Below, in pieces: positions 49,118-64,000 of a DNA stretch of 64,000 nucleotides; position 1 is the first letter of the stretch, and every line of letters begins with the position of its first letter. The notes under the pieces were generated by a model. That model was not told the origin of the DNA. It worked only from the letters and a program-made list of their open reading frames with translations, and ran no database searches. The translations under genes were made by a program, and so were the position numbers. This DNA is from an uncultured bacterium (GTDB taxonomy: Bacteria > Bacillota_I > Bacilli_A > RFN20 > CAG-826), in NCBI GenBank assembly GCA_949299395.1, contig CASGAB010000004.1, forward strand, positions 1 through 64,000, given 5' to 3'.

Positions 49118-50878
49118 TTATTTATTTTCTTCATTAATAATTGGGGTTGGATTAAAGTTAAAGATTTCATTCTTTTTCTTTTTATTTTCAACAACCTCAA
49201 CAACATTAACAATAGATTTATAATCATCTAAAGAAATGATTCCTTCTTTAACAAGTTTACTTGCTTTAAAATCAATTTCTTTAAAGCCATCATCATGAGC
49301 AAGATCTTTAATTTTTTCAATATCTGCATAAGATGTTGCGATACTTCTTCTTAATTTATCATTTAATTTTAAGATTTCAAAAACCGCAATTCTTCCGCTA
49401 TATCCGGTATAATTACATGCTTCACAACCCTTTGCTTCATAGATTTTATCGCCTTCATTTATATCATGGAGGTAAGAAGCTTCTTCGGCTGTAACGATAT
49501 GTTCTTTTTTACATTTTGGACATAATCTTCTAACAAGTCTTTGAGAAATTGCACCAAGTAAAGCATCACTAACAAGATAAGGTTCAACACCCATATCAAC
49601 AAGTCTAGTAATTGTTGTAACAGCATCGTTAGTGTGGACACTAGATAAAACTAAGTGACCAGTAATAGCAGCTTGAACAGCAATATGAGCGGTTTCATTA
49701 TCTCTAATTTCACCAACCATGATAATGTTAGGGTCTTGTCTAAGAATAGATCTTAATGAACGAGCAAAAGTTAAATCAACTTTATTATTAACTTGAAGTT
49801 GGTTAATTCCACTAATATCATTTTCAACAGGGTCTTCAACAGTAATAATATTAACTCCAACCTTATTTAATCTTTTTAAAATGCTATATAAAGTTGTAGT
49901 TTTACCACTTCCTGTAGGACCGGTTAAAAGAATAATTCCGTGAGGTGAAGAAATAAGTTCATTAATTAAGTTATAGTCTTCTTTATCATGAATTAATTCT
50001 TCTAAAGTTTCGCCTTGATCAAGAGAGTTATAAAGTCTAATAACAATTTTTTCGCCGTATTGAATTGGTAAAGTAGAAACACGGAAATCGTAGTCAGTAT
50101 CGTTATAATTAAAGTTAATCTTACCATCTTGAGGGACTCTTCTTTCAGCAATATCAAGTCGAGCCATAATCTTGAATCTAGAGATTAAAGATTGATAGTT
50201 TTTAGCATCAATTGTGGTATGCTCTTTTAAAACACCATCAACTCTAAAACGGACTCTAACTTTATCTTCCATTGGTTCGATATGAATATCACTAGCTTTT
50301 TCATTTAATGCTTCTTTAAGTAAAGTATTAGCGAGTTGAACGGAAGGTCCATCAACATAATCTTCTAAACTTTCTCTAGCTTCCTCTTCTGCAAAACCTT
50401 TATCTTTTCTAATATTTTCAGCAGCTTCTTCTCTTTTTGATTTACTATCAATAGTAAAAATTAAAGAGTCCATATCTTTAGAAGAAACTAAATAAACTTT
50501 ATATGGATCTGAGGTATAAAATGAAATTTTTTGAGTTTCATCAAAAGTATAAGGATTATCAATTAAGACGATTAAAGAGCCATCTTTTTCATCCTTTTTA
50601 AAAGGAACAATTCTTTTTTGGATAATAAACATCTTGTTAAATTCTTTATAAATTGAATTATCAAGATTATAAATATTGAATTCTTCATAATAAGGGATAT
50701 TAAAGATATCTCCTAAAGCGGATAAAACTTTTTCTTTATCAAAATCTTTTTTAACGATTAAATAATCACTTAATAAACGATCTTCAATATTGGCTTCCGT
50801 TATAAAATCGTTAGCATCTTTAATATCGATTAATCCTCTTTTTAAAAACTCATCTTTTAAAAATTCATTAACTTTCAT
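49118..50878 (-). CDS. pilB: type IV pilus/type II secretion assembly ATPase
   Basis: 586 residues. It drives pilin polymerisation at the inner membrane. An N-terminal MshEN-like domain (about 1-145) precedes the ATPase. Walker A GPTGSGKTT is at 320-328, the Asp and His boxes follow in VEDPVE and HLVLSSVHTND, Walker B in IIMVGEIRD. Two CxxC pairs (Cys453/456 and Cys485/488) form the zinc site. No PilT is in the window. Confidence 0.95.
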   Translation of the reverse strand: MKVNEFLKDEFLKRGLIDIKDANDFITEANIEDRLLSDYLIVKKDFDKEKVLSALGDIFNIPYYEEFNIYNLDNSIYKEFNKMFIIQKRIVPFKKDEKDGSLIVLIDNPYTFDETQKISFYTSDPYKVYLVSSKDMDSLIFTIDSKSKREEAAENIRKDKGFAEEEARESLEDYVDGPSVQLANTLLKEALNEKASDIHIEPMEDKVRVRFRVDGVLKEHTTIDAKNYQSLISRFKIMARLDIAERRVPQDGKINFNYNDTDYDFRVSTLPIQYGEKIVIRLYNSLDQGETLEELIHDKEDYNLINELISSPHGIILLTGPTGSGKTTTLYSILKRLNKVGVNIITVEDPVENDISGINQLQVNNKVDLTFARSLRSILRQDPNIIMVGEIRDNETAHIAVQAAITGHLVLSSVHTNDAVTTITRLVDMGVEPYLVSDALLGAISQRLVRRLCPKCKKEHIVTAEEASYLHDINEGDKIYEAKGCEACNYTGYSGRIAVFEILKLNDKLRRSIATSYADIEKIKDLAHDDGFKEIDFKASKLVKEGIISLDDYKSIVNVVEVVENKKKKNEIFNFNPTPIINEENK

Positions 50879-50909
50879 ATATTTTTACCTCTTATTCATT
50901 CTATATATA

Positions 50910-52121
50910 TTAAGCAAGTGGAGCTGTTGTAAATTGGAAGATTGGGAGCATAACAGCAAGGAGAATAACTCCAACTAAAGCACCCATAATAACAATAACG
51001 ACTGGTTCTAATAAACCAATTGCTCTAGTTAAAGATGCATTAAAGACTCCTTGATAATAACCACCAATCTTTTCTAAAGATTGAGTTAAAGCACTATTAT
51101 CTTCACCAACCTTTACCATTTGAATAAAAAGTGCAGGGAAAAAGCCACAATTTTCTAAAGCTCTAGATAATTTTTTACCATTAGAAACTTCTTCAATTGC
51201 AAAATTAAACTTCTTAGTAAAATATTCATTATTAATAATTCTTGGCATTTCTTTCATTGCACTAATAACAGTCATACCACTACCAAGTAGTGTAGCAAAT
51301 GAAGAAGCAAATCTTGTTGTAATTGAATTGATTTTAACTTTTCTAACAAGTGGGAATTTAATTAAAAATGCTTCTTTAATAAATTTACCTAATTTAGTCT
51401 TAAAAAAGATAAATAAGAAGATTATTAACGCTACAATAACAATTAAAATAATTATGATATTATCGACAAAAAAGTTTGAAAATCCTAAAACTATTTGAGT
51501 TAAAAGAGGAACTTCTTGACCATATTGTAAAATCATATCTGCAAACATTGGAACAACATAAATCATCAGTAAAAAGAAAATTGCAGTAATAACAACAAAA
51601 AGGAAAATCGGATATGCCATAGACGATTTTACTTTTTGTTTTATTTTTTGATCATTATCATAATAATCACTAGCTTTTCTTAAAACCCCTGCTAAATTAC
51701 CAGAAATTTCACCAATATAAATCATTGAACAGAAATATTCAGGAAAGATTTTTTTATGTTTTCTTAAAGCGGTAGTAAGTAAAGATCCTCCTAAAACATC
51801 TTCATAAACTTCAGAGATAACATTTTTAAAAACAGTTGAAAATTCTTGTTTTCTTAAAACATCTAAACATTCACTTAATTCGCTACCAGTATTAAGCATA
51901 ATTGCAAATTCTTCACAAAAAGTAATAAATTCACTTCTAGAAACCCTAGATGAAACTGCTAAAAAATTGCTTCTTCTTTTTTCTTTTTCTTTTTTAAAAT
52001 CAATTAAAGTAATTCCGGCATCTTTAAGTCTAATTTTTAGTTCACTTTCATCACTAGCTTTCATCCTGTCTTTAATAATAGTTGAATTTTCATCATAGCC
52101 TATATAATTAAAAATTGGCAT
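50910..52121 (-). CDS. pilC: type IV pilus/type II secretion inner-membrane platform protein
   Basis: 403 residues of the GspF/PilC family: two homologous cytosolic domains and three membrane helices (about 170-190, 220-245 and 372-395). The motif ARxGSGMTV-like FATLLGSGMTVISAMKEMP is in the second domain. It lies between pilD-like and pilB-like genes. Confidence 0.93.
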   Translation of the reverse strand: MPIFNYIGYDENSTIIKDRMKASDESELKIRLKDAGITLIDFKKEKEKRRSNFLAVSSRVSRSEFITFCEEFAIMLNTGSELSECLDVLRKQEFSTVFKNVISEVYEDVLGGSLLTTALRKHKKIFPEYFCSMIYIGEISGNLAGVLRKASDYYDNDQKIKQKVKSSMAYPIFLFVVITAIFFLLMIYVVPMFADMILQYGQEVPLLTQIVLGFSNFFVDNIIIILIVIVALIIFLFIFFKTKLGKFIKEAFLIKFPLVRKVKINSITTRFASSFATLLGSGMTVISAMKEMPRIINNEYFTKKFNFAIEEVSNGKKLSRALENCGFFPALFIQMVKVGEDNSALTQSLEKIGGYYQGVFNASLTRAIGLLEPVVIVIMGALVGVILLAVMLPIFQFTTAPLA

Positions 52122-52169: not shown

Positions 52170-53102
52170 TTAACTAACTAATAATCCTAAATATTCTTCT
52201 AAATCCATCAAAGTTATTACACTATAATCAACATAATCTTTTATAAAAAATATAATAAAGTATGCAATTGCAATAAATGGGAAGAATGGGACGATTTTAG
52301 AGTTATCTTCGGTTTCACTTATCTTTTCCTCTTCTTCGATATTACTATCTATATTCTTATTTCTATCTTTAATATATCTAAATAAATAATAAATAAGAGC
52401 GGACACACTAGCTAAAAATAATAAAAGTATTATATTGATTACTCCGACATTAAGCCCTAAAAGAGTAAACATAATTACATCCGCCATTCCTATAGCATCT
52501 TTTTTAAGTAATACCTTATATATAAATATTAATAATATAAATATAATTAATGGTAATAATAATCCTCCTAGATTAAATATAAGAGTATATTTATAATTTA
52601 TTATCATTTTGATAATAAATTCTATTAATACTAATACAAGTATTAGTATTAATAGAGTATAAGGTATTTCATATTTTTTATAATCAATATATGCTCCTAT
52701 AATAAGTAGAAATACTATAAATATATCGATTATATAAATATAATCGATATAATAAATTATATAGATACTTTTATTAAATATGTAGTAACCGTATAAATAT
52801 AATGTAACAAATAATAGTAAAGATAATAGTTCTCCTATAAATAATGTCGGAGATATTTTATTTTTACAGTATCTACATCTTCCTTTTAAAAAGATATAAG
52901 AAAATAAAGGTATTAAATCTAATATAGATAATTTATGATGACAACTATCACAAAAAGAATATGGTTCATCTTTATAGCTAATATCATTAATATATCTAAA
53001 AGAAAAAGATATAAAAAAAGATGCTAATACTAAACTTAAAAATATTAGTAATACTAATAATAAACTAAATAAAAATATATCTAATTCTCCACTAATATTC
53101 AT
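52170..53102 (-). CDS. pilD: prepilin leader peptidase/N-methyltransferase
   Basis: 310 residues. It cleaves and N-methylates prepilins. Zinc ligands Cys51, Cys54, Cys76 and Cys79 form the N-terminal cytosolic loop. Eight helices follow. The catalytic aspartates are Asp140 (GAYIDYKKYEIP) and Asp208; the second lies in GMAD, where the GxGD motif has Ala for its second Gly. The gene contains long perfect inverted repeats. Confidence 0.9.
   Translation of the reverse strand: MNISGELDIFLFSLLLVLLIFLSLVLASFFISFSFRYINDISYKDEPYSFCDSCHHKLSILDLIPLFSYIFLKGRCRYCKNKISPTLFIGELLSLLLFVTLYLYGYYIFNKSIYIIYYIDYIYIIDIFIVFLLIIGAYIDYKKYEIPYTLLILILVLVLIEFIIKMIINYKYTLIFNLGGLLLPLIIFILLIFIYKVLLKKDAIGMADVIMFTLLGLNVGVINIILLLFLASVSALIYYLFRYIKDRNKNIDSNIEEEEKISETEDNSKIVPFFPFIAIAYFIIFFIKDYVDYSVITLMDLEEYLGLLVS
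52595..52621. repeat. intragenic perfect inverted repeat in pilD
   Basis: AATTTATTATCA (52595-52606) with its complement at 52610-52621, spacer TTT: 12-bp arms. Confidence 0.7.
52621..52656. repeat. 17-bp-arm intragenic inverted repeat in pilD
   Basis: TCTATTAATACTAATAC (52621-52637) with its complement at 52640-52656, spacer AA. It abuts the preceding repeat. Confidence 0.85.
52722..52751. repeat. 13-bp-arm intragenic inverted repeat in pilD
   Basis: TATATCGATTATA (52722-52734) with its complement at 52739-52751, spacer TAAA. Confidence 0.8.
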
Positions 53103-53115
53103 ATCTACCTACTAA

Positions 53116-54195
53116 TTAACTATTTACTTCTATATTTTCTTCACTTTTAATAACCATTTCTTTAGTTACATCTAAAGTTAAATTAATAATATTGTTATAT
53201 GTTTTAACTTCTTCTTCGCCTTCTCCTCCTGGATTTTCTGGATCAGTTGGTTCTTCAGCTAAAGTTGTTTCACCCTCTTCTTCTTTACCAGGTTCAGTTG
53301 GATCAAATGGTTCACTTGGTTCTTCATAGAATTTATTTTTCATATAATTGAATGGATATTCTTTTTTATTTTCAGAGATGTCTTCATCAAAATTTAATAT
53401 CGAAAAAAAGTCTAAAGTTGTGGTATAACTTTCAGTATCTATTACAATTTTAAAATTATTAAAATATGCAGTATTATCGATGTTTTTTAAACTAAAAACT
53501 TTATTTTCTTCACTAGCTAGAGAAATGAATCCACAAGAAATTCCATTTTCCGGATCTGCTTTATTTAAATCTACAACAAGTTTAATACTTGTTCCTTCTC
53601 TTGAAGTTAAATTAGCAAAAAGTTCTTGAGCATTATATGTTTTTCTATCTGTATCACTAATTATTTTTGAAGCTAAAATTTCATCAGTTTTACCGGCGTC
53701 TTCTTCAGTGTAATCGGTAGGAAAAACCGTTCTACTATATTTTTCTTTTATAGTATTATAAACTGTTTCTTCTTCAGCTGGATCAACTTCAAGAGAAAAA
53801 ATTCTATCAATTTCATCTTTATCAAAAACATAGTTATATACGATGTTTTTTAATAAATTAAGTTCTAAAGTATAGGTAGGTTCAGGAGTTTCTTCGCCTT
53901 CTTCTACCTCCTCTTGATGGCTATTTACTTTTCCTTCTTCAAGCATCATATAAAAGATATCAAAGAAGTTAGAATAAGAATATTCCATTACCTTCTCTTC
54001 TATTAGAACACTATCTTCTTTTAAAGCATTATCGTTTTTGTTCATATTTTTAAAAAGATTTGAGCTAAAAAGGAATGCTAAACAAAGTGAAGATAACATT
54101 AAAGAGATTATTAAAATAATAGCGGATGTAGTTAGTAAGATATATCCTCTATTTAATTTATTATTATGTTTTAAGTTATTCTTAATATGATACAT
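53116..54195 (-). CDS. GspK-like minor prepilin without Glu5
   Basis: 359 residues. NRGYILLTTSAIILI gives a Gly at -1 but Thr in place of Glu at +5, a trait of GspK-like tip pseudopilins, which are also large. The helix (17-40) is followed by a Glu/Pro/Thr-rich exported part. The gene lies between the prepilin peptidase and another prepilin, whose end it overlaps by 14 bases. Assignment is from motif and size. Confidence 0.6.
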   Translation of the reverse strand: MYHIKNNLKHNNKLNRGYILLTTSAIILIISLMLSSLCLAFLFSSNLFKNMNKNDNALKEDSVLIEEKVMEYSYSNFFDIFYMMLEEGKVNSHQEEVEEGEETPEPTYTLELNLLKNIVYNYVFDKDEIDRIFSLEVDPAEEETVYNTIKEKYSRTVFPTDYTEEDAGKTDEILASKIISDTDRKTYNAQELFANLTSREGTSIKLVVDLNKADPENGISCGFISLASEENKVFSLKNIDNTAYFNNFKIVIDTESYTTTLDFFSILNFDEDISENKKEYPFNYMKNKFYEEPSEPFDPTEPGKEEEGETTLAEEPTDPENPGGEGEEEVKTYNNIINLTLDVTKEMVIKSEENIEVNS

Positions 54196-54742
54196 AACTT
54201 AAAATAATATCCTCCACTTTAGCATTACTTTCTCTTAAAGAAGTAATACTAGATATAGTTATTTTTTTAACACTATAAGTATAGGTATAATCTAGATCAT
54301 TATTTTCATTAATCGGATTAGTTGATATTTCTTCTTTATAATTAAAAGAATAAACATAGGTAATACTATTATCTATATTTTCTTCTAATACTAAAGTATT
54401 AGAAGAATCTACATATATAGTATTACCATTATATTCAGGATCATTATGATCAATATTAAATTCTAATAAGGTAGGAATATAATTATTATCTATACTAATT
54501 CTATTAACAATAATGTTAATAGAGTTAGTAATGTTAATCTCTTCATTTAACTTGTTAAATGAAGAGTTATAGATAATAATTCCACTAAAAGTAAATCCAA
54601 CTCCTAAAGTAAAGATTATTAAAGATACGACTACTTCAATAATCGAAAACCCTTTTTTATTAATATTAAATATATTAAAGATATTAAAACTATGTAATAA
54701 AGAATTATTATTCTTATTTCTTTTCATCTTTATTCTTACCAA
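54182..54742 (-). CDS. minor prepilin, GspI/J-like
   Basis: 186 residues. The cleavage site KKGFSIIEVVVSLIIFTLG has Gly at -1 and Glu at +5. Both ends overlap neighbours (14 bases with the GspK-like gene, 29 bases with the PilM-like gene). It contains three inverted repeats in its coding sequence, two of them with 13-bp arms. Confidence 0.85.
   Translation of the reverse strand: MVRIKMKRNKNNNSLLHSFNIFNIFNINKKGFSIIEVVVSLIIFTLGVGFTFSGIIIYNSSFNKLNEEINITNSINIIVNRISIDNNYIPTLLEFNIDHNDPEYNGNTIYVDSSNTLVLEENIDNSITYVYSFNYKEEISTNPINENNDLDYTYTYSVKKITISSITSLRESNAKVEDIILSYVSY
54380..54407. repeat. 13-bp-arm intragenic inverted repeat
   Basis: TTCTTCTAATACT with its complement at 54395-54407, spacer AA. 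Confidence 0.8.
54500..54523. repeat. 10-bp-arm intragenic inverted repeat
   Basis: TCTATTAACA (54500-54509) with TGTTAATAGA (54514-54523), spacer ATAA. Within the minor prepilin gene. Confidence 0.6.
54539..54566. repeat. 13-bp-arm intragenic inverted repeat
   Basis: CTCTTCATTTAAC with its complement at 54554-54566, spacer TT. Confidence 0.8.
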
Positions 54743-55796
54743 ATAACCCTTTCTTTTTATTATTAGTATTATTACTATTATCGATATCTTCTTTATCTTT
54801 ATTATTACTATTAGATCTAATAAATAACTTATTTAAGAATGATTCTTTTTCAATAGGAAAAGAAAATGAATCACTTATAAGATTGATACTAATAACATCT
54901 AAATTATTAACTTCTTTTAATTTAGATGTTATTAAGTTATCTCTACCATCAATATAGATGGTAGAGATAACATTATTATTGAATAATCTATCAATCTTAT
55001 AATTAAAAGAATTAATATCTAATAATATATTATTAATTAATAAGTTATTATCATTATAATCATTATTATTAATAAATGCTTTATATCTAATATAATGTTT
55101 TTCGATATAATAATAACTTATTAAATATTTATTATCTAATATAGATAATAAATATATATAATTACCATTATTATCTTTAACTTTACTCTTATTAACATTA
55201 TTATTATTTAGTTTATTTAATAATACTAAAGCTAAATCTTTAGTATTATTAAAATTAACTAATAATGATAATGATGTTAATACTTTTTTATATTTATTTA
55301 ATAGATCTTTTTTAATTAAATATGTAACACTAATTAATCTTTTATTTTTAAATCTTATCAAGGAAGTATCACTCTTACCTTCATCTTTATATTCATCAGT
55401 GAAAGTATCTTTTAAATTATTTTCAATAACTTTAGCTAATTTAGACTTAGGAAGAGATGAAGGTAAATGTGATACTTCATAATAAGATTTATCATTTAAA
55501 TAATATAAATGAACTCTTTTATCATAATTAATAATATTATTATCATTTAAAAAGTTAATAAATTCTCCTTTTAAAGAAGATAAATCATTAAGATTAATAT
55601 TATTAAATTCTTTAGTAATAACATAATTGTTATTACTAATATCTTTATTATTATTATTATTAGTATTAGTATAAAAACTAAATATAAGGTTAATATTATT
55701 AGTGTTAAAATCAAGGATTAAACAATCAACCTTATATTTAGTTTTATTACTAATACTATTATTTACTTTATTATTAACATTATTTACTTCATCCAT
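54714..55796 (-). CDS. PilM-like protein, very Asn-rich
   Basis: 360 residues with no signal or membrane helix. The layout between two prepilins and the C-terminal part ISTIYIDGRDNLITSKLKEV, which recalls PilM, suggest the cytosolic actin-like pilus protein. Similarity is weak and Asn runs such as TNTNNNNNKDISNNN break it up. No PilN or PilO follows. It ends in KGLFGKNKDEKK. Confidence 0.45.
   Translation of the reverse strand: MDEVNNVNNKVNNSISNKTKYKVDCLILDFNTNNINLIFSFYTNTNNNNNKDISNNNYVITKEFNNINLNDLSSLKGEFINFLNDNNIINYDKRVHLYYLNDKSYYEVSHLPSSLPKSKLAKVIENNLKDTFTDEYKDEGKSDTSLIRFKNKRLISVTYLIKKDLLNKYKKVLTSLSLLVNFNNTKDLALVLLNKLNNNNVNKSKVKDNNGNYIYLLSILDNKYLISYYYIEKHYIRYKAFINNNDYNDNNLLINNILLDINSFNYKIDRLFNNNVISTIYIDGRDNLITSKLKEVNNLDVISINLISDSFSFPIEKESFLNKLFIRSNSNNKDKEDIDNSNNTNNKKKGLFGKNKDEKK
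54936..54971. repeat. 15-bp-arm intragenic inverted repeat
   Basis: GTTATCTCTACCATC (54936-54950) with its complement at 54957-54971, spacer AATATA. Contains G/C pairs, so it is not plain AT richness. Confidence 0.9.
55125..55155. repeat. 14-bp-arm intragenic inverted repeat
   Basis: ATATTTATTATCTA (55125-55138) with its complement at 55142-55155, spacer ATA. Confidence 0.8.
55217..55252. repeat. 15-bp-arm intragenic inverted repeat
   Basis: TTAATAATACTAAAG (55217-55231) with its complement at 55238-55252, spacer CTAAAT. Confidence 0.85.
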
Positions 55797-55862
55797 AATT
55801 GTGTTACCTCTTATTTATAATTATTTATTAGTTAGTTATTTAATTATTTATCACTAGTTACT

Positions 55863-55892
55863 GTTAATGAATCATACTAATGATTCATTAAC
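55863..55892. repeat. 12-bp-arm inverted repeat over the end of the prepilin gene
   Basis: GTTAATGAATCA (55863-55874) with its complement at 55881-55892, spacer TACTAA. It covers the stop codon at 55872, but no T run follows. Confidence 0.8.
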
Positions 55893-56723
55893 TCTTAAAT
55901 AATTCATTGTAAATGAATTATTTAAATCATTAAGATAGTAACTAGTGATATTAATTTCCATATATTTATAGTTACTATCATCACTACTTAATTCTTTCCA
56001 AGATTCATCATAATATTTAATATTAGATGAATCTTTAGCTATATTAATATCTTCATTAGTAAAATATATTGTTTCATCAATATATTTTACTTTAGTTATA
56101 TCAATTGGTTCTTCTATATCTATTGGTGGAACAACTTCCTCTTCTTCACCTTCTCCTTCTTCTAAAGCTGGTTCAGTAGGATCAATAGGAGGGTCAGTAG
56201 GATCAACTGGTTCTTCTGGTTCAGTAGGTGGCTCTTCTTCACCGTAGATATCCTTGTAATCGTAAGTTCTTTTAATGAATTCAAAGTTAATGGTACTACT
56301 AGTACCATTAACTTTGAAATAATAAAGAATTAATTCATCATCAGTAGTATCTAATGTATTGTTATTGTTAGCAAAGTAAATTAATGAGTGTTCATTATTT
56401 TCTTTGTTAACATTTAAATTCTTTAAAGTATCATTGATGAAGTTTTCATCTTCTTCATTTCCTAATACCATTTTAGCAGTAGATATACTGCTAAAATGGT
56501 ATAAATCTAAATCATTAAAAAATGATTCTTTTAGTGTTGTTAAACTAATTAAAGAATCATTTTTTAATGTTATAGATTTATAAGAAGATGAAACAAAAAT
56601 AATCATTGAAGTTAAACCTACTAAAATGATAGAACCACTAGCAATAGATATTGCTAGTTCTATTAGGGTAAATCCTTTTTTATTCTTATATTTATTTTTA
56701 TTTAATCTTCTTTTTATTTTCAT
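55872..56723 (-). CDS. minor prepilin with PE/T-rich region
   Basis: 283 residues. The cleavage site KKGFTLIELAISIASG has Gly at -1 and Glu at +5. A Pro/Glu/Thr-rich segment (about 168-205, with PTEPEEPVDPTDPP) interrupts the exported domain, a trait shared with the GspK-like gene. It has at least five inverted repeats, with arms up to 18 bp. Confidence 0.85.
   Translation of the reverse strand: MKIKRRLNKNKYKNKKGFTLIELAISIASGSIILVGLTSMIIFVSSSYKSITLKNDSLISLTTLKESFFNDLDLYHFSSISTAKMVLGNEEDENFINDTLKNLNVNKENNEHSLIYFANNNNTLDTTDDELILYYFKVNGTSSTINFEFIKRTYDYKDIYGEEEPPTEPEEPVDPTDPPIDPTEPALEEGEGEEEEVVPPIDIEEPIDITKVKYIDETIYFTNEDINIAKDSSNIKYYDESWKELSSDDSNYKYMEINITSYYLNDLNNSFTMNYLRVNESLV
55895..55925. repeat. 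14-bp-arm intragenic inverted repeat
   Basis: TTAAATAATTCATT (55895-55908) with AATGAATTATTTAA (55912-55925), spacer GTA. Confidence 0.8.
56280..56318. repeat. 18-bp-arm intragenic inverted repeat
   Basis: TTCAAAGTTAATGGTACT (56280-56297) with its perfect complement at 56301-56318, spacer ACT. On the minus strand it encodes residues around FKVNGTSSTINFEF. Confidence 0.95.
56465..56502. repeat. 17-bp-arm intragenic inverted repeat
   Basis: ATACCATTTTAGCAGTA (56465-56481) with its complement at 56486-56502, spacer GATA. Confidence 0.95.
56514..56568. repeat. 18-bp-arm intragenic inverted repeat with 19-base spacer
   Basis: ATTAAAAAATGATTCTTT (56514-56531) with its complement at 56551-56568. 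Confidence 0.85.
56637..56658. repeat. 10-bp-arm intragenic inverted repeat
   Basis: ACTAGCAATA with TATTGCTAGT, spacer GA. Near the prepilin membrane helix. Confidence 0.6.
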
Positions 56724-56737
56724 ATCTATATACCAAG

Positions 56738-56766
56738 ATATCCCTACACCAATGGTGTAGGGATAT
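56738..56766. repeat. 13-bp-arm inverted repeat between prepilin genes
   Basis: ATATCCCTACACC (56738-56750) with its complement at 56754-56766, spacer AAT. It lies in the 99-base gap between two prepilin genes, together with an 11-bp-arm repeat at 56782-56810. Neither is followed by a T run; they may act on mRNA stability rather than as terminators. Confidence 0.8.
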
Positions 56767-56822: not shown

Positions 56823-57383
56823 TTAAGCTCCAGCTGTGAATAATTTAGTATCTTCTGATGCTTTGAAATTAGCTGCAATACCAACTTCTTCAGTAGCACC
56901 ATCCATTGTATAGCCAAATCCTGCAACAACAACTGTTCCACCATCAATCTCAGCGTCTTCGCCATAGAAAGTTAATGTTGCATGAGGGTTAGCTCCTGAA
57001 AAACGATCGCCAACTGTTGCACCTTCACCTTCTGTTCCAACAAAATAGACATATTCAAAAACATCAACAGCAATAGCAGATGTGATATCAACTGGAGTTT
57101 CTGCAGTCGATTTGATTTCTAAACCCTTTGATGAAACTGAAAGTTCGAAAGTATTAGCTCCAACAGGAACTTTTTCTCCATCAGCTGCAACAACATTAAC
57201 TAAAGTAACTAATTGTTCTGCTTCTTGTAAAGCTGCAGATTTTTTAGCACTCTCTGTAACACCAAAATATGCAGCAACACTAACACCTGCTAAAATAGCA
57301 ATAACAGCAATAACAACAACAAGTTCAATTAAAGTAAAAGCTTTTTTTGTTGTTCTTTTAATTCCTTTTAATAAATTATTCAT
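56823..57383 (-). CDS. major-type prepilin (copy 1)
   Basis: 186 residues. The leader ends KKAFTLIELVVVIAVIAILA, with Ala at -1 and Glu at +5, and the first 50 residues are nearly identical to the copy at 59661. The C-terminal domain is beta-rich and Gly/Ala/Val-rich, as in pilins and pseudopilins. It is the first gene of the pilus operon. AGGAG lies 11 bases before the ATG. An IS element lies 170 bases upstream. Confidence 0.9.
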   Translation of the reverse strand: MNNLLKGIKRTTKKAFTLIELVVVIAVIAILAGVSVAAYFGVTESAKKSAALQEAEQLVTLVNVVAADGEKVPVGANTFELSVSSKGLEIKSTAETPVDITSAIAVDVFEYVYFVGTEGEGATVGDRFSGANPHATLTFYGEDAEIDGGTVVVAGFGYTMDGATEEVGIAANFKASEDTKLFTAGA

Positions 57384-57561: not shown

Positions 57562-58893
57562 TTATTGGACAGTTTTTAAATTTTTCCATTGTCTAACTTT
57601 TATTCTCTTTTCTGTAAACCATTTTAAATATTTATTTAATTTATCAATGAAGTCAGAACATGTTGCCTCTGTCCAATCGTAAGGATAATAAAATTCGTTT
57701 TTTATTGTTCCGAAGAAACCCTCACACATTGAATTATCTGGCGAACAACCTTTTTTGCTCATAGACCTTGTATAACCAAATTTTTCCATTAATGCTATCC
57801 GACTTGGGAGACGATAATGAAATCCTCTATCATTATGAATAGTACAATTATTATTTTTAATTATTTCGTGGCCTTTTATAAGCATTGTATTAGTAAGTTC
57901 AGAATTAGGGGATGTGCCACAAGTATAAACTATTGGCAATCCATCATAACAATCAATTAAAGGAGATAAGTATACTTTTCCATCTTTTAAAGAGAATTCT
58001 GTTATATCAGTCAATACTTTTGTGTAAGGTTTATCCACTTTAAAATCTCTATTTAATAGATTAGAAACTTCAGGTGAAATTTCACCTTCATAAGAAGAAT
58101 ATTTTCTTTTTCTCTTTTGATAAACAATAAGGCCAATTTGTTTCATTAAGCGTCTAACAACTTTTTCACTAATATTAATGTCGAAAGTATCAATAAGAGC
58201 TATTTTTATTCTTCTATAGCCATAACATTTATAATTCTCGTTAAACATTATTTTAATTTTTTCTTTAATATCATCGTATTTATCGACTAAATTTCTAGTA
58301 CATTCATAGTAAAAAGTAGATCTTTTTAATTTTAATTTCTTTAATAAAGCTGTGGTTGAATATGTTCCTTTTAAGGCGTTAACTACAATAGTTTTTTCTT
58401 TGTTGGTTAAATTACCGTAATTAACGCCTATTTCTTTTTTTATTAATTCATTTGCCTTCTTTAGTATTTTATTTTCAAGCTCTAAATCATTCCTCTCTTT
58501 TCTTAACTTTTCAATTTCTGCGAGTAATTCGTCTTTATTGTTGCTCTTGTCAATATCCATTTTTTCACCCGTTAAATTTTTTTGCCACATATAAATAGTT
58601 TCTCTTGTAACACCTAATTTTTCGGCCAATTCTTTCCCAGGAATTGTCCTATTGACAAATTCTTTTACAATAGCAATTTTATCATTTTCCGAATAATTAT
58701 TTTTGTTTACTTTCATTTTTCTTTTAGGTTTTTTATATCTTTTATCTTTTTTAACCCATAATTTTAGACAAGATTTTGATGGATACCCAAATCTTTTAAC
58801 TGTATTAGAAATATTTTCTCCGTGTTCAAAATAATAATCACGCACTTGTTTAATTTGTTCAGAAGTCCGTTTCCCTTTTTTTAATATGAACAA
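57562..58893 (-). CDS. IS3-family transposase, main part
   Basis: 443 residues in the frame as shown. Two helix-turn-helix regions (about 8-45 and 68-108) and a coiled coil precede the DDE core: Asp in LTDITEF, Asp in IHNDRGFHY and Glu in CEGFFGTIKNE. The displayed start is a TTG within the previous frame, so this is most likely the downstream part of a longer enzyme reached through a shift at A7, not an independent gene. Confidence 0.85.
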   Translation of the reverse strand: MFILKKGKRTSEQIKQVRDYYFEHGENISNTVKRFGYPSKSCLKLWVKKDKRYKKPKRKMKVNKNNYSENDKIAIVKEFVNRTIPGKELAEKLGVTRETIYMWQKNLTGEKMDIDKSNNKDELLAEIEKLRKERNDLELENKILKKANELIKKEIGVNYGNLTNKEKTIVVNALKGTYSTTALLKKLKLKRSTFYYECTRNLVDKYDDIKEKIKIMFNENYKCYGYRRIKIALIDTFDINISEKVVRRLMKQIGLIVYQKRKRKYSSYEGEISPEVSNLLNRDFKVDKPYTKVLTDITEFSLKDGKVYLSPLIDCYDGLPIVYTCGTSPNSELTNTMLIKGHEIIKNNNCTIHNDRGFHYRLPSRIALMEKFGYTRSMSKKGCSPDNSMCEGFFGTIKNEFYYPYDWTEATCSDFIDKLNKYLKWFTEKRIKVRQWKNLKTVQ

Positions 58894-60369: not shown

Positions 60370-61119
60370 ATGGGATTAAAGATATTACTTATTACATTAA
60401 CTCTACTTACTACTTTCTTAGTTATATTAATGCATTATAAATATAAGATTAATAAAATCATACTTAATGTATTAGGTATATTTTTATTAATCTTTAAGAT
60501 AATAGAATTTAGTTATTACTATTTAAATGATATGAATATCTTTCCAGTAGAATTCTCTCATATATCTTATTTTATAGTATCTATAATAATTATCTTTAAT
60601 ATTAAAAGATTATATTTCTTTGGTTCTTTTATATCATTTACTAGTGGAATTACTTATGTTCTTACTTACTTATTTAAAGATAATGAATTTGTTACATTTA
60701 ATATTTACATGACCTTTATATCTCATATAATATTACTCTTTATTGGATTAACCTTAATGTTTAATATGAATAAATATAAAAAAATAGATACATTGTATCT
60801 ATTTTTAGGATTTATTCTTATTATTACATATTCTTTATTAGTACATTATAAGCTTATTTTCCCTAATCAAGATTTATCATATGTTGTATTAAATCAAATA
60901 ATATTTGGATCTATATTAAAATATATCGGTATTACTACTTTTAATGAGATTACATATTTAATTTATTATCCTTCATTAATATTAGTGTTAGTTTTATTAA
61001 TTACATCTATTTATTTTATTAATAAACATTTATCACTAGATTTAATTACTCGCTATAAATTAGATAATAAGACATATAATAAATTAATCGATAGATTCAT
61101 TTTAGTTAAACATAATTAA
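60370..61119 (+). CDS. YwaF-like seven-helix membrane protein
   Basis: 249 residues with seven predicted helices. The FPVEFSHISYFIVSI segment follows the position of the conserved motif of the YwaF/TIGR02206 family, which has no assigned function. It is transcribed away from the pilin gene, and its stop lies within the repeat cluster that follows. A 12-bp-arm inverted repeat is in the coding sequence at 60780-60806. Confidence 0.6.
   Translation: MGLKILLITLTLLTTFLVILMHYKYKINKIILNVLGIFLLIFKIIEFSYYYLNDMNIFPVEFSHISYFIVSIIIIFNIKRLYFFGSFISFTSGITYVLTYLFKDNEFVTFNIYMTFISHIILLFIGLTLMFNMNKYKKIDTLYLFLGFILIITYSLLVHYKLIFPNQDLSYVVLNQIIFGSILKYIGITTFNEITYLIYYPSLILVLVLLITSIYFINKHLSLDLITRYKLDNKTYNKLIDRFILVKHN
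60780..60806. repeat. 12-bp-arm intragenic inverted repeat
   Basis: AAAAATAGATAC with GTATCTATTTTT, spacer ATT. Confidence 0.8.
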
Positions 61120-62825: not shown

Positions 62826-64000
62826 TTAATATCTAATTAACGATAAATCTAATGAAGATGTAGGTTTAATTAAACTAGACTCATCATTTTTATATAAATA
62901 AAATTTAAAATTACCATTACCAAAAATCATATAAAATATAGAACTTTCTTCTACTTTTATTCCATCTTCACCCTTAAAAGAATAAAGTCTATTTATACTT
63001 TCATCATTTAAATCAACTTTAGAAAAATTAGTCCCACCTCCTAAAGATATAATCGGAGTAGAAATATAATTTTCATCATATAGATATACTTTGTTTTCGT
63101 CTTTATTAAATTCATTATCTAATAAACTAGATACATTAAAAGATTCTAATATATTAGAAAAAGATGAGTTATCACTTTCAAATATCGAATTAATATTTAA
63201 ATCTTCTAACTTTTTAAAATCATAAAAATAATTATTCCCATCCATAATTAATCTAGAACCTTTAGAAACTCCCCCTAAAGGTAAAGAAGAAGAAAAATAT
63301 TCATTAAATGAAGAATTATATAAGAGCGATCCATTTAAATGATTATCAATAAATATAGATGCAAAACCAGATTGATAAAATATATTATTTTTTATAGTTA
63401 ATGTATTATCAATATTAGATTCATTAATCTTATCATCTTTATCTTCGATAAATTGATAAGATAATGAATCTTCCATGTTTAAAAAAGCTTTATAAGTAGA
63501 TGAAGATAATTTAATTAAATTATCGTATGAATGCATTAAAAGTGAATTAGATAAAGTTATATTAGAAGATGATGATTGATATATTAAATTACGCGAATTA
63601 GATAAATTTAAATCTTCAAATAATATATTTGATGAATTATAAATAGAGATTAAATTACCAATGTAACGATATTCATTTAAAGTTGATTTATCATCACACC
63701 CTTTAATTATTAAATTAGATACTATTAATGGATCAGATGAAGAATAATTATTGAGGTTATTAATTAAAATAACTGTGTTATCGTCTTTATATTTATATAA
63801 TGATGATTCTATTACATCTATTTCACCATTATATTTATTATTTATTTTTTTAATACTATTTAATATTCCTACACTTTTTAATGGACCTAAAAATATATCA
63901 TTATAAGTAGAAATAGATGTAATAGAATTATTATTTATATAATTAACATTTCCACTAGGAAATGTAAAATCATTAAAATTAATACTATATCCATTACCAT
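62826..64000 (-). CDS. beta-helix-like protein, paralogue of 43040 product (cut by window edge)
   Basis: The frame is open without stops from the stop at 62826 to the right edge, 391 residues, so the true start lies beyond. The part around FYQSGFASIFIDNHLNG corresponds to FYQSGFFSIGIDTHFCG in the 43040 product; other matching parts are NDFTFPSG to NDFTINAHELTYPS, and DIFLGPLKSV to DIFQGPLSFV. So it is a second copy of that exported protein. It has a bulged inverted repeat at 63417-63471. Confidence 0.8.
   Translation of the reverse strand, partial: GNGYSINFNDFTFPSGNVNYINNNSITSISTYNDIFLGPLKSVGILNSIKKINNKYNGEIDVIESSLYKYKDDNTVILINNLNNYSSSDPLIVSNLIIKGCDDKSTLNEYRYIGNLISIYNSSNILFEDLNLSNSRNLIYQSSSSNITLSNSLLMHSYDNLIKLSSSTYKAFLNMEDSLSYQFIEDKDDKINESNIDNTLTIKNNIFYQSGFASIFIDNHLNGSLLYNSSFNEYFSSSLPLGGVSKGSRLIMDGNNYFYDFKKLEDLNINSIFESDNSSFSNILESFNVSSLLDNEFNKDENKVYLYDENYISTPIISLGGGTNFSKVDLNDESINRLYSFKGEDGIKVEESSIFYMIFGNGNFKFYLYKNDESSLIKPTSSLDLSLIRY
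63417..63471. repeat. 18-bp-arm intragenic inverted repeat with one bulge
   Basis: AGATTCATTAATCTTATCA (63417-63435) with TGATAAGATAATGAATCT (63454-63471), one extra A. Confidence 0.7.

Follow-up and report, generated by a model that had tools for sequence, protein, structure and literature searches.

Perfect inverted repeats concentrated in type IV pilus genes of an uncultured bacterium and their possible origin by template switching

Several type IV pilus genes in one stretch of bacterial DNA carry long, perfect inverted repeats (IRs) within their coding sequence, and the question raised by this locus is what produces these repeats and why they are found in these genes. The stretch, here called the window, comprises 64,000 nucleotides (contig CASGAB010000004.1, positions 1 to 64,000 of the forward strand, GenBank assembly GCA_949299395.1) from an uncultured member of the lineage Bacillota_I; Bacilli_A; RFN20; CAG-826. 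The window is 27% GC and belongs to a genome (G000) of 1.24 Mb in 39 contigs. Its pilus operon was recognized with Pfam and encodes T2SSE and T2SSF proteins, a prepilin peptidase, N_methyl prepilins and a PilM-like protein. When 26 genomes of the genus were compared, the same operon was present in just one other, that of the sister species G010. An earlier note, made from the sequence alone, had described many long inverted repeats in these genes between 52595 and 56658. Scanning the window for perfect IRs with arms of at least 11 bp and spacers of at most 20 nt confirmed this, as 16 of the 34 IRs detected lie between 52621 and 56569, and most of the rest, spread over the other 60 kb, are intergenic. 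Arms of 12-19 bp are present in 15 of these 16 IRs, and their spacers are mostly of 1-6 nt, with exceptions of 11, 14 and 19 nt. The range originally described holds for four pilus genes, but the gene at 53116-54195 within it contains no IRs.

We compared these counts with those in 1000 codon-preserving shuffles of the four repeat-bearing genes (52170-56723), which retain the protein and the codon usage of each gene. With arms of at least 11 bp and spacers of at most 12 nt, 13 IRs were observed where 1.5 were expected (maximum 6 in any shuffle), and with arms of at least 13 bp, 12 were observed where 0.47 were expected (maximum 3). Nearly all other genes of the window had z-scores near zero. 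Of the two refuting conditions named in the earlier note, neither held: the frequency differs from that in shuffles, and it differs from gene to gene. We refer below to IR-rich genes as hot and to genes without IR excess as cold. The excess extended beyond the window: in a genome sample of 647 of the 1,240 kb of G000, from which a 20-kb stretch consisting entirely of N was omitted (L018; C2:20001-40000), 555 kb of coding sequence held 59 IRs, where codon-preserving shuffles gave 13.6. The density in cluster genes below 0.25 GC was 15-22 IRs per 10 kb for G000 and 7-20 for G010, while GC-matched genes outside the cluster carried 0.9-4.6 in G000, 1.3-2.0 in G010 and 0-2.0 in other members of the genus. 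Loci of other Firmicutes and of other phyla had next to no IRs and were usually of higher GC, and other genera of the family with a pilus locus had none, in loci that are GC-richer (36-56%). The excess was restricted to spacers of approximately 0-8 nt and involved arms of up to 20 bp, where shuffles yield almost nothing at 16 bp or more. Direct repeats were barely enriched (1.2 times expectation), and clustering of adjacent repeats was weak (3 versus 1.14 expected, p 0.09). Since GC-matched genes carry fewer IRs, only short spacers are affected and direct repeats are scarcely in excess, the enrichment reflects neither composition nor general repetitiveness. A regional mutation hotspot is also unlikely, with cold genes interspersed among the hot ones. 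Across the hot genes we counted 41 IRs, compared with 5.0 when the protein was kept in codon-preserving shuffles and 1.9 when codon order was shuffled; this indicates that the protein sequence itself has been shaped.

The earlier note had pointed to the conservation of arms in relatives as informative. In codon alignments of G000 and G010 orthologs, a few stems were shared with G010, but most were present in one species only. The density of IRs per gene was nevertheless correlated between orthologs (rho 0.58, p 2e-10; for genes below 0.26 GC, rho 0.70, p 3e-7). As density is conserved gene by gene while the stems are mostly unshared, IR-richness is a property of the gene and the sites are not conserved. 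Single changes that break a pair were approximately as frequent at stem pairs as at chance-complementary pairs, and compensatory double changes showed no clear excess (12/397 and 29/381, versus control fractions of 0.022 and 0.054). The few common stems include those encoding TLVNILTN in the ABC ATPase and LFKNEESSF in the permease, and sit on conserved peptides. Stem sequence had mostly been substituted rather than inserted; one G010 prepilin peptidase (PilD) stem (RYSLRVSS) does fall in a length-variable stretch.

Properties of the stems themselves bear on whether they act as RNA or arise in DNA. Local folding of the hot genes was far stabler than that of codon-preserving shuffles (sense z -2.7 to -9.1), and the antisense strand gained equally. 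Stem mismatches showed no clear preference in sense for G-T over A-C. As a control we used intergenic terminator-like hairpins, which had 3 G-T and 4 A-C mismatches in 800 pairs under a strict threshold, and 14 and 6 under a looser one. Because terminator hairpins behave in the same way, strand symmetry and G-U counts have little power against selection on RNA. The arms were not GC-enriched, either overall (0.172 versus 0.189) or at third positions (0.098 versus 0.099). The excess lay in near-perfect stems, with 16 perfect 14-pair stems observed versus 0.5 expected and 17 with one mismatch versus 3.6, while stems with 3-4 mismatches were near expectation. Residues encoded by stems were less conserved than others (0.49 versus 0.60, p 4e-5), which also fits mere tolerance of repeats in variable stretches. 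Together, the turnover of stems, the lack of compensation, the predominance of near-perfect stems, the absence of GC enrichment and the low conservation favour a DNA-level origin over selected mRNA structure.

We therefore tentatively propose, with a confidence just short of even, that the repeats result from gene-biased palindrome formation, in which template switching at the DNA level perfects quasi-palindromes. Where a very AT-rich gene is under weak constraint, its short imperfect palindromes would form hairpins in single-stranded DNA. The polymerase would switch to the nearby complementary arm, so that one arm is overwritten with the reverse complement of the other and a perfect short-spacer IR arises in a single step. 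Many of the resulting changes would be tolerated by the protein. As stems later decayed, others would appear at new positions within that gene, whose density would stay high while sites turn over. We infer that template switching makes the repeats and that some feature of the gene, such as its transcription state, R-loops or low translation, raises the rate.

The DNA-repair background of the genus may be permissive for such a process. MutS1 was above the cut-off in none of the 26 genomes; almost all of them contain an ORF, mostly of about 760 aa, that matches MutS in part, across the C-terminal ATPase region, and is probably MutS2. SbcD was detected in neither G000 nor G010, and 1 of the 26 genomes had it above the cut-off. 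XseA is present. SbcCD removes hairpins, and the absence of SbcD may let palindromes persist. We regard the absence of MutS1 and SbcD as a permissive background that does not account for which genes are affected.

We looked for direct template-switch events in the congeners G016, G018 and G021, which are syntenic at approximately 87-90% identity, with 79-152 kb aligned per pair. In G021 (L242:3859), a derived change of ATT to TGA, three adjacent substitutions in one arm, completes a perfect 15-bp repeat. Another candidate was found in a gene for a 5'-nucleotidase/metallophosphatase-like lipoprotein, where two abutting repeats in G018 fall exactly on the stretch of the gene most diverged from G016 (0.333 versus 0.089, p 2e-6), and in each repeat one arm holds most of the differences (2:5 and 6:1). 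This gene (L015:16261-17700; orthologs L252-L262) lies outside the pilus cluster and is also IR-rich. It has 4 IRs in G000, and repeats at differing places in G018, G024, G021 and G010. An apparent burst of substitution at lineage-specific repeats vanished on conditioning on at least one difference.

Several observations weigh against an origin by template switching. These two good events are the only ones, both are in congeners, and none was caught inside the hot cluster. Among the clustered changes of G016, G018 and G021, reverse-complement matches were not above direct or reversed controls, and arm divergence in this close triple was not raised at 25 repeats after correction for ascertainment. 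Between G000 and G010, the two arms were equal in divergence, without asymmetry. The hot genes showed no synonymous hypermutation; hypermutation was also rejected as an account of them, as the ABC ATPase, permease and YwaF-like pairs match cold genes in same-codon conservation. A mutational process would not be expected to follow gene borders so sharply, as at the gene at 53116-54195, which is repeat-free between hot genes. Finally, the absence of MutS1 and SbcD cannot explain the hot cluster, because it is genus-wide.

A serious rival, and the main one, is selection for mRNA hairpins, one of the two causes suggested in the earlier note alongside templated strand switching. Under such selection, which we consider less likely, the mRNAs for low-abundance pilus and transporter components would be held in a highly structured state, which might for instance restrain their translation or decay, and any strong hairpin would suffice, so that positions drift. 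Diffuse selection of this kind would fit the conservation of gene-specific IR density in orthologs, the abrupt change from hot to cold between neighbouring genes of one operon, and the low folding energies of the hot genes; terminators in these genomes are also nearly all Watson-Crick, so a scarcity of G-U pairs does not exclude it. It fits poorly with arms that lack G+C enrichment even at third positions, with the dominance of perfect and one-mismatch stems where compromise with the protein would be expected to give graded imperfect ones, and with the alteration of amino acids rather than of synonymous codons alone. Nor does it predict the lack of compensatory change or, although this comparison has low power, the equal gain of sense and antisense strands. 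Several facts lean to templated strand switching as the likelier of the two causes. Regulatory hairpins of RNA or DNA conserved at fixed sites are very unlikely as a general account: in their favour stand the shared stems at TLVNILTN and LFKNEESSF and a fully conserved 16-bp hairpin elsewhere in the genome, but the shared stems are a minority on conserved peptides and most stems lack a counterpart. The conserved hairpin, a perfect one with 16-bp arms (L020:1498-1539, contig C5 of G000), lies in an ABC permease gene (BPD_transp_1), close to its 5' end. Its arms are identical in G000, G010, G016 and G018 (orthologs L203, L204 and L205) amid varying codons. In contrast to the stems of the pilus genes, this hairpin looks conserved and is possibly functional.

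The two remaining explanations are refuted. Very low G+C and low-complexity codons might alone produce IRs, and IR density does climb as gene GC drops in every genome sampled; codon-preserving and codon-order shuffles nevertheless fall short by approximately 8-fold and 20-fold, respectively, and the several-fold lower density of GC-matched genes elsewhere and the scant enrichment of direct repeats leave composition with hardly any probability. Insertion of a dispersed palindromic family, of which REP, MITE and the Rickettsia palindromic elements are examples, has a precedent, in that the Rickettsia elements sit inside coding genes (cited in PMC6649704). The sequences refute it almost completely: every stem differs, as the earlier note had recognized, with no shared consensus and no Rfam family, and orthologs mostly show substitution, not insertion.

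Within the window, all genes of the pilus operon are on the reverse strand. The assembly ATPase (T2SSE) and platform protein (T2SSF) genes (49118..52121) are conserved and cold. The prepilin peptidase gene pilD (52170..53102; Pfam A24_N_bact and Peptidase_A24; shuffle z 1.7) has two perfect IRs, at 52621..52656 (17-bp arms, 2-nt spacer), which is missing at the homologous site in G010, and at 52722..52751 (14-bp arms, 2-nt spacer). The IR-free gene at 53116..54195 has no Pfam match and is GspJ-like by position only; its G010 ortholog carries IRs of 13 and 15 bp. The N_methyl gene prepilin2 (54182..54742; z 5.5) has two IRs, at 54380..54407 and 54539..54566, both with 13-bp arms and 2-nt spacers, and a further IR crosses from prepilin2 into the next gene. 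The PilM-like gene (54714..55796; 16% GC; z 5.0), so named in the earlier note and without a Pfam match, has five, at 54890..54934 (17-bp arms, 11-nt spacer), 54936..54971 (15-bp arms, 6-nt spacer; 1 nt from the preceding IR), 55125..55155 (14-bp arms, 3-nt spacer), 55216..55253 (16-bp arms, 6-nt spacer) and 55612..55639 (12-bp arms, 4-nt spacer). The window's largest IR excess is in the N_methyl gene prepilin1 (55872..56723; z 9.3), which has five IRs, four of them with spacers of at most 12 nt: 55895..55925 (14-bp arms, 3-nt spacer), 56058..56091 (14-bp arms, 6-nt spacer), 56280..56318 (19-bp arms, 1-nt spacer), 56465..56502 (17-bp arms, 4-nt spacer) and 56513..56569 (19-bp arms, 19-nt spacer). 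The IR at 55863..55892 (13-bp arms, 4-nt spacer) is partly intergenic and overlaps only the stop and 3' end of prepilin1. The major-pilin-like gene (56823..57383; 36% GC) has no IR and is a cold gene within the same cluster. Between it and prepilin1 lies an intergenic 14-bp IR (56738..56766), probably an ordinary terminator or attenuator outside the coding-palindrome phenomenon. The window PilM-like gene and prepilin2 are two overlapping ORFs, prepilin2 having a TTG start; in G010 (L012:13468-14838) the two form a single continuous ORF. An IS3-like transposase ORF (HTH_21, rve; 57562-58893) lies directly upstream of the major-pilin-like gene.

Other genes named in the earlier note fared variously. 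The YwaF-like gene (60370..61119, forward strand; no Pfam match) does contain a stem, but just one of 13 bp (60780-60806); its G010 ortholog has IRs of 13 and 15 bp at other places within the gene. The part of the gene at 62826 that lies in the window has nothing above 10 bp, but a 19-bp stem lies just outside (L014:5258-5306, in the G000 sequence past the window end). No candidate maf ORF near the window start has an IR excess, and the ribosomal-protein genes (approximately 10-23.6 kb) are free of IRs of 11 bp or more, as first noted. The phenomenon, described for the pilus genes, also reaches a trio adjoining the operon beyond the window (L014:3827-8768; L013:3255-8217 in G010), comprising an ABC ATPase and proteins of approximately 590 and 805 aa without Pfam matches, which is IR-rich in both species and is possibly a transporter working alongside the pilus.

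Perfect IRs within genes are usually disfavoured because they place constraints on the protein at both arms. A locus in which they are many-fold enriched, renewed by lineage and restricted to certain genes would offer a natural setting in which template-switch mutation on a chromosome can be measured or, alternatively, an example of position-blind selection for mRNA structure; either answer bears on the origin of hairpins and on the divergence of minor pilins. It is conceivable, if improbable, that gene-biased and perhaps transcription-linked template switching keeps rewriting particular envelope genes of this cluster. Hairpin formation, conserved per gene and not per site, would then steadily supply changes of several residues at once to the minor pilins and the neighbouring transporter. 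The most interesting part is the targeting of these genes in both species.

Surveys of bacterial IRs likewise found perfect short-spacer repeats above shuffled expectation, mostly intergenic and near transcript ends (PMC13155455, PMC10434271), whereas those described here lie inside the coding sequence of specific genes. Quasipalindrome template-switch mutation, as studied in E. coli (PMC7202029), yeast genes (PMC8604942) and RNA stems (PMC8794818), shares the short spacer, the homogenization of arms, multi-nucleotide changes in one arm and non-synonymous changes in coding genes. Those studies followed individual events between strains or from reconstructed ancestors, while the present evidence consists of two good events, both from congeners, with changes in the hot cluster itself unpolarized. 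The nearest published case is that of Nematomorpha mitochondrial coding palindromes, which reach 284 bp and in which codon phase 3 is depleted among long repeats (PMC6649704). The present repeats differ in their arms of 11-20 bp, in lying on a bacterial chromosome and in being concentrated in a single gene cluster shared by two species of one genus. Among them phase 3 is still common (21/42, 17/28 and 12/30 with rising arm length, the last at arms of at least 15 bp), in arms too short for comparison with the nematomorph repeats. Palindromes of the nematomorph type would be expected to encode conserved amino acids in both arms, unlike the less conserved stem residues here. The two systems have in common perfect IRs inside functional coding genes, an excess of perfect arms, a bias toward certain genes, gain and loss between species and AT-richness. 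Template switching has been proposed for the Nematomorpha palindromes too, and the authors argued for a conversion mechanism, likewise without proof, from the same combination of perfect arms and turnover (PMC6649704).

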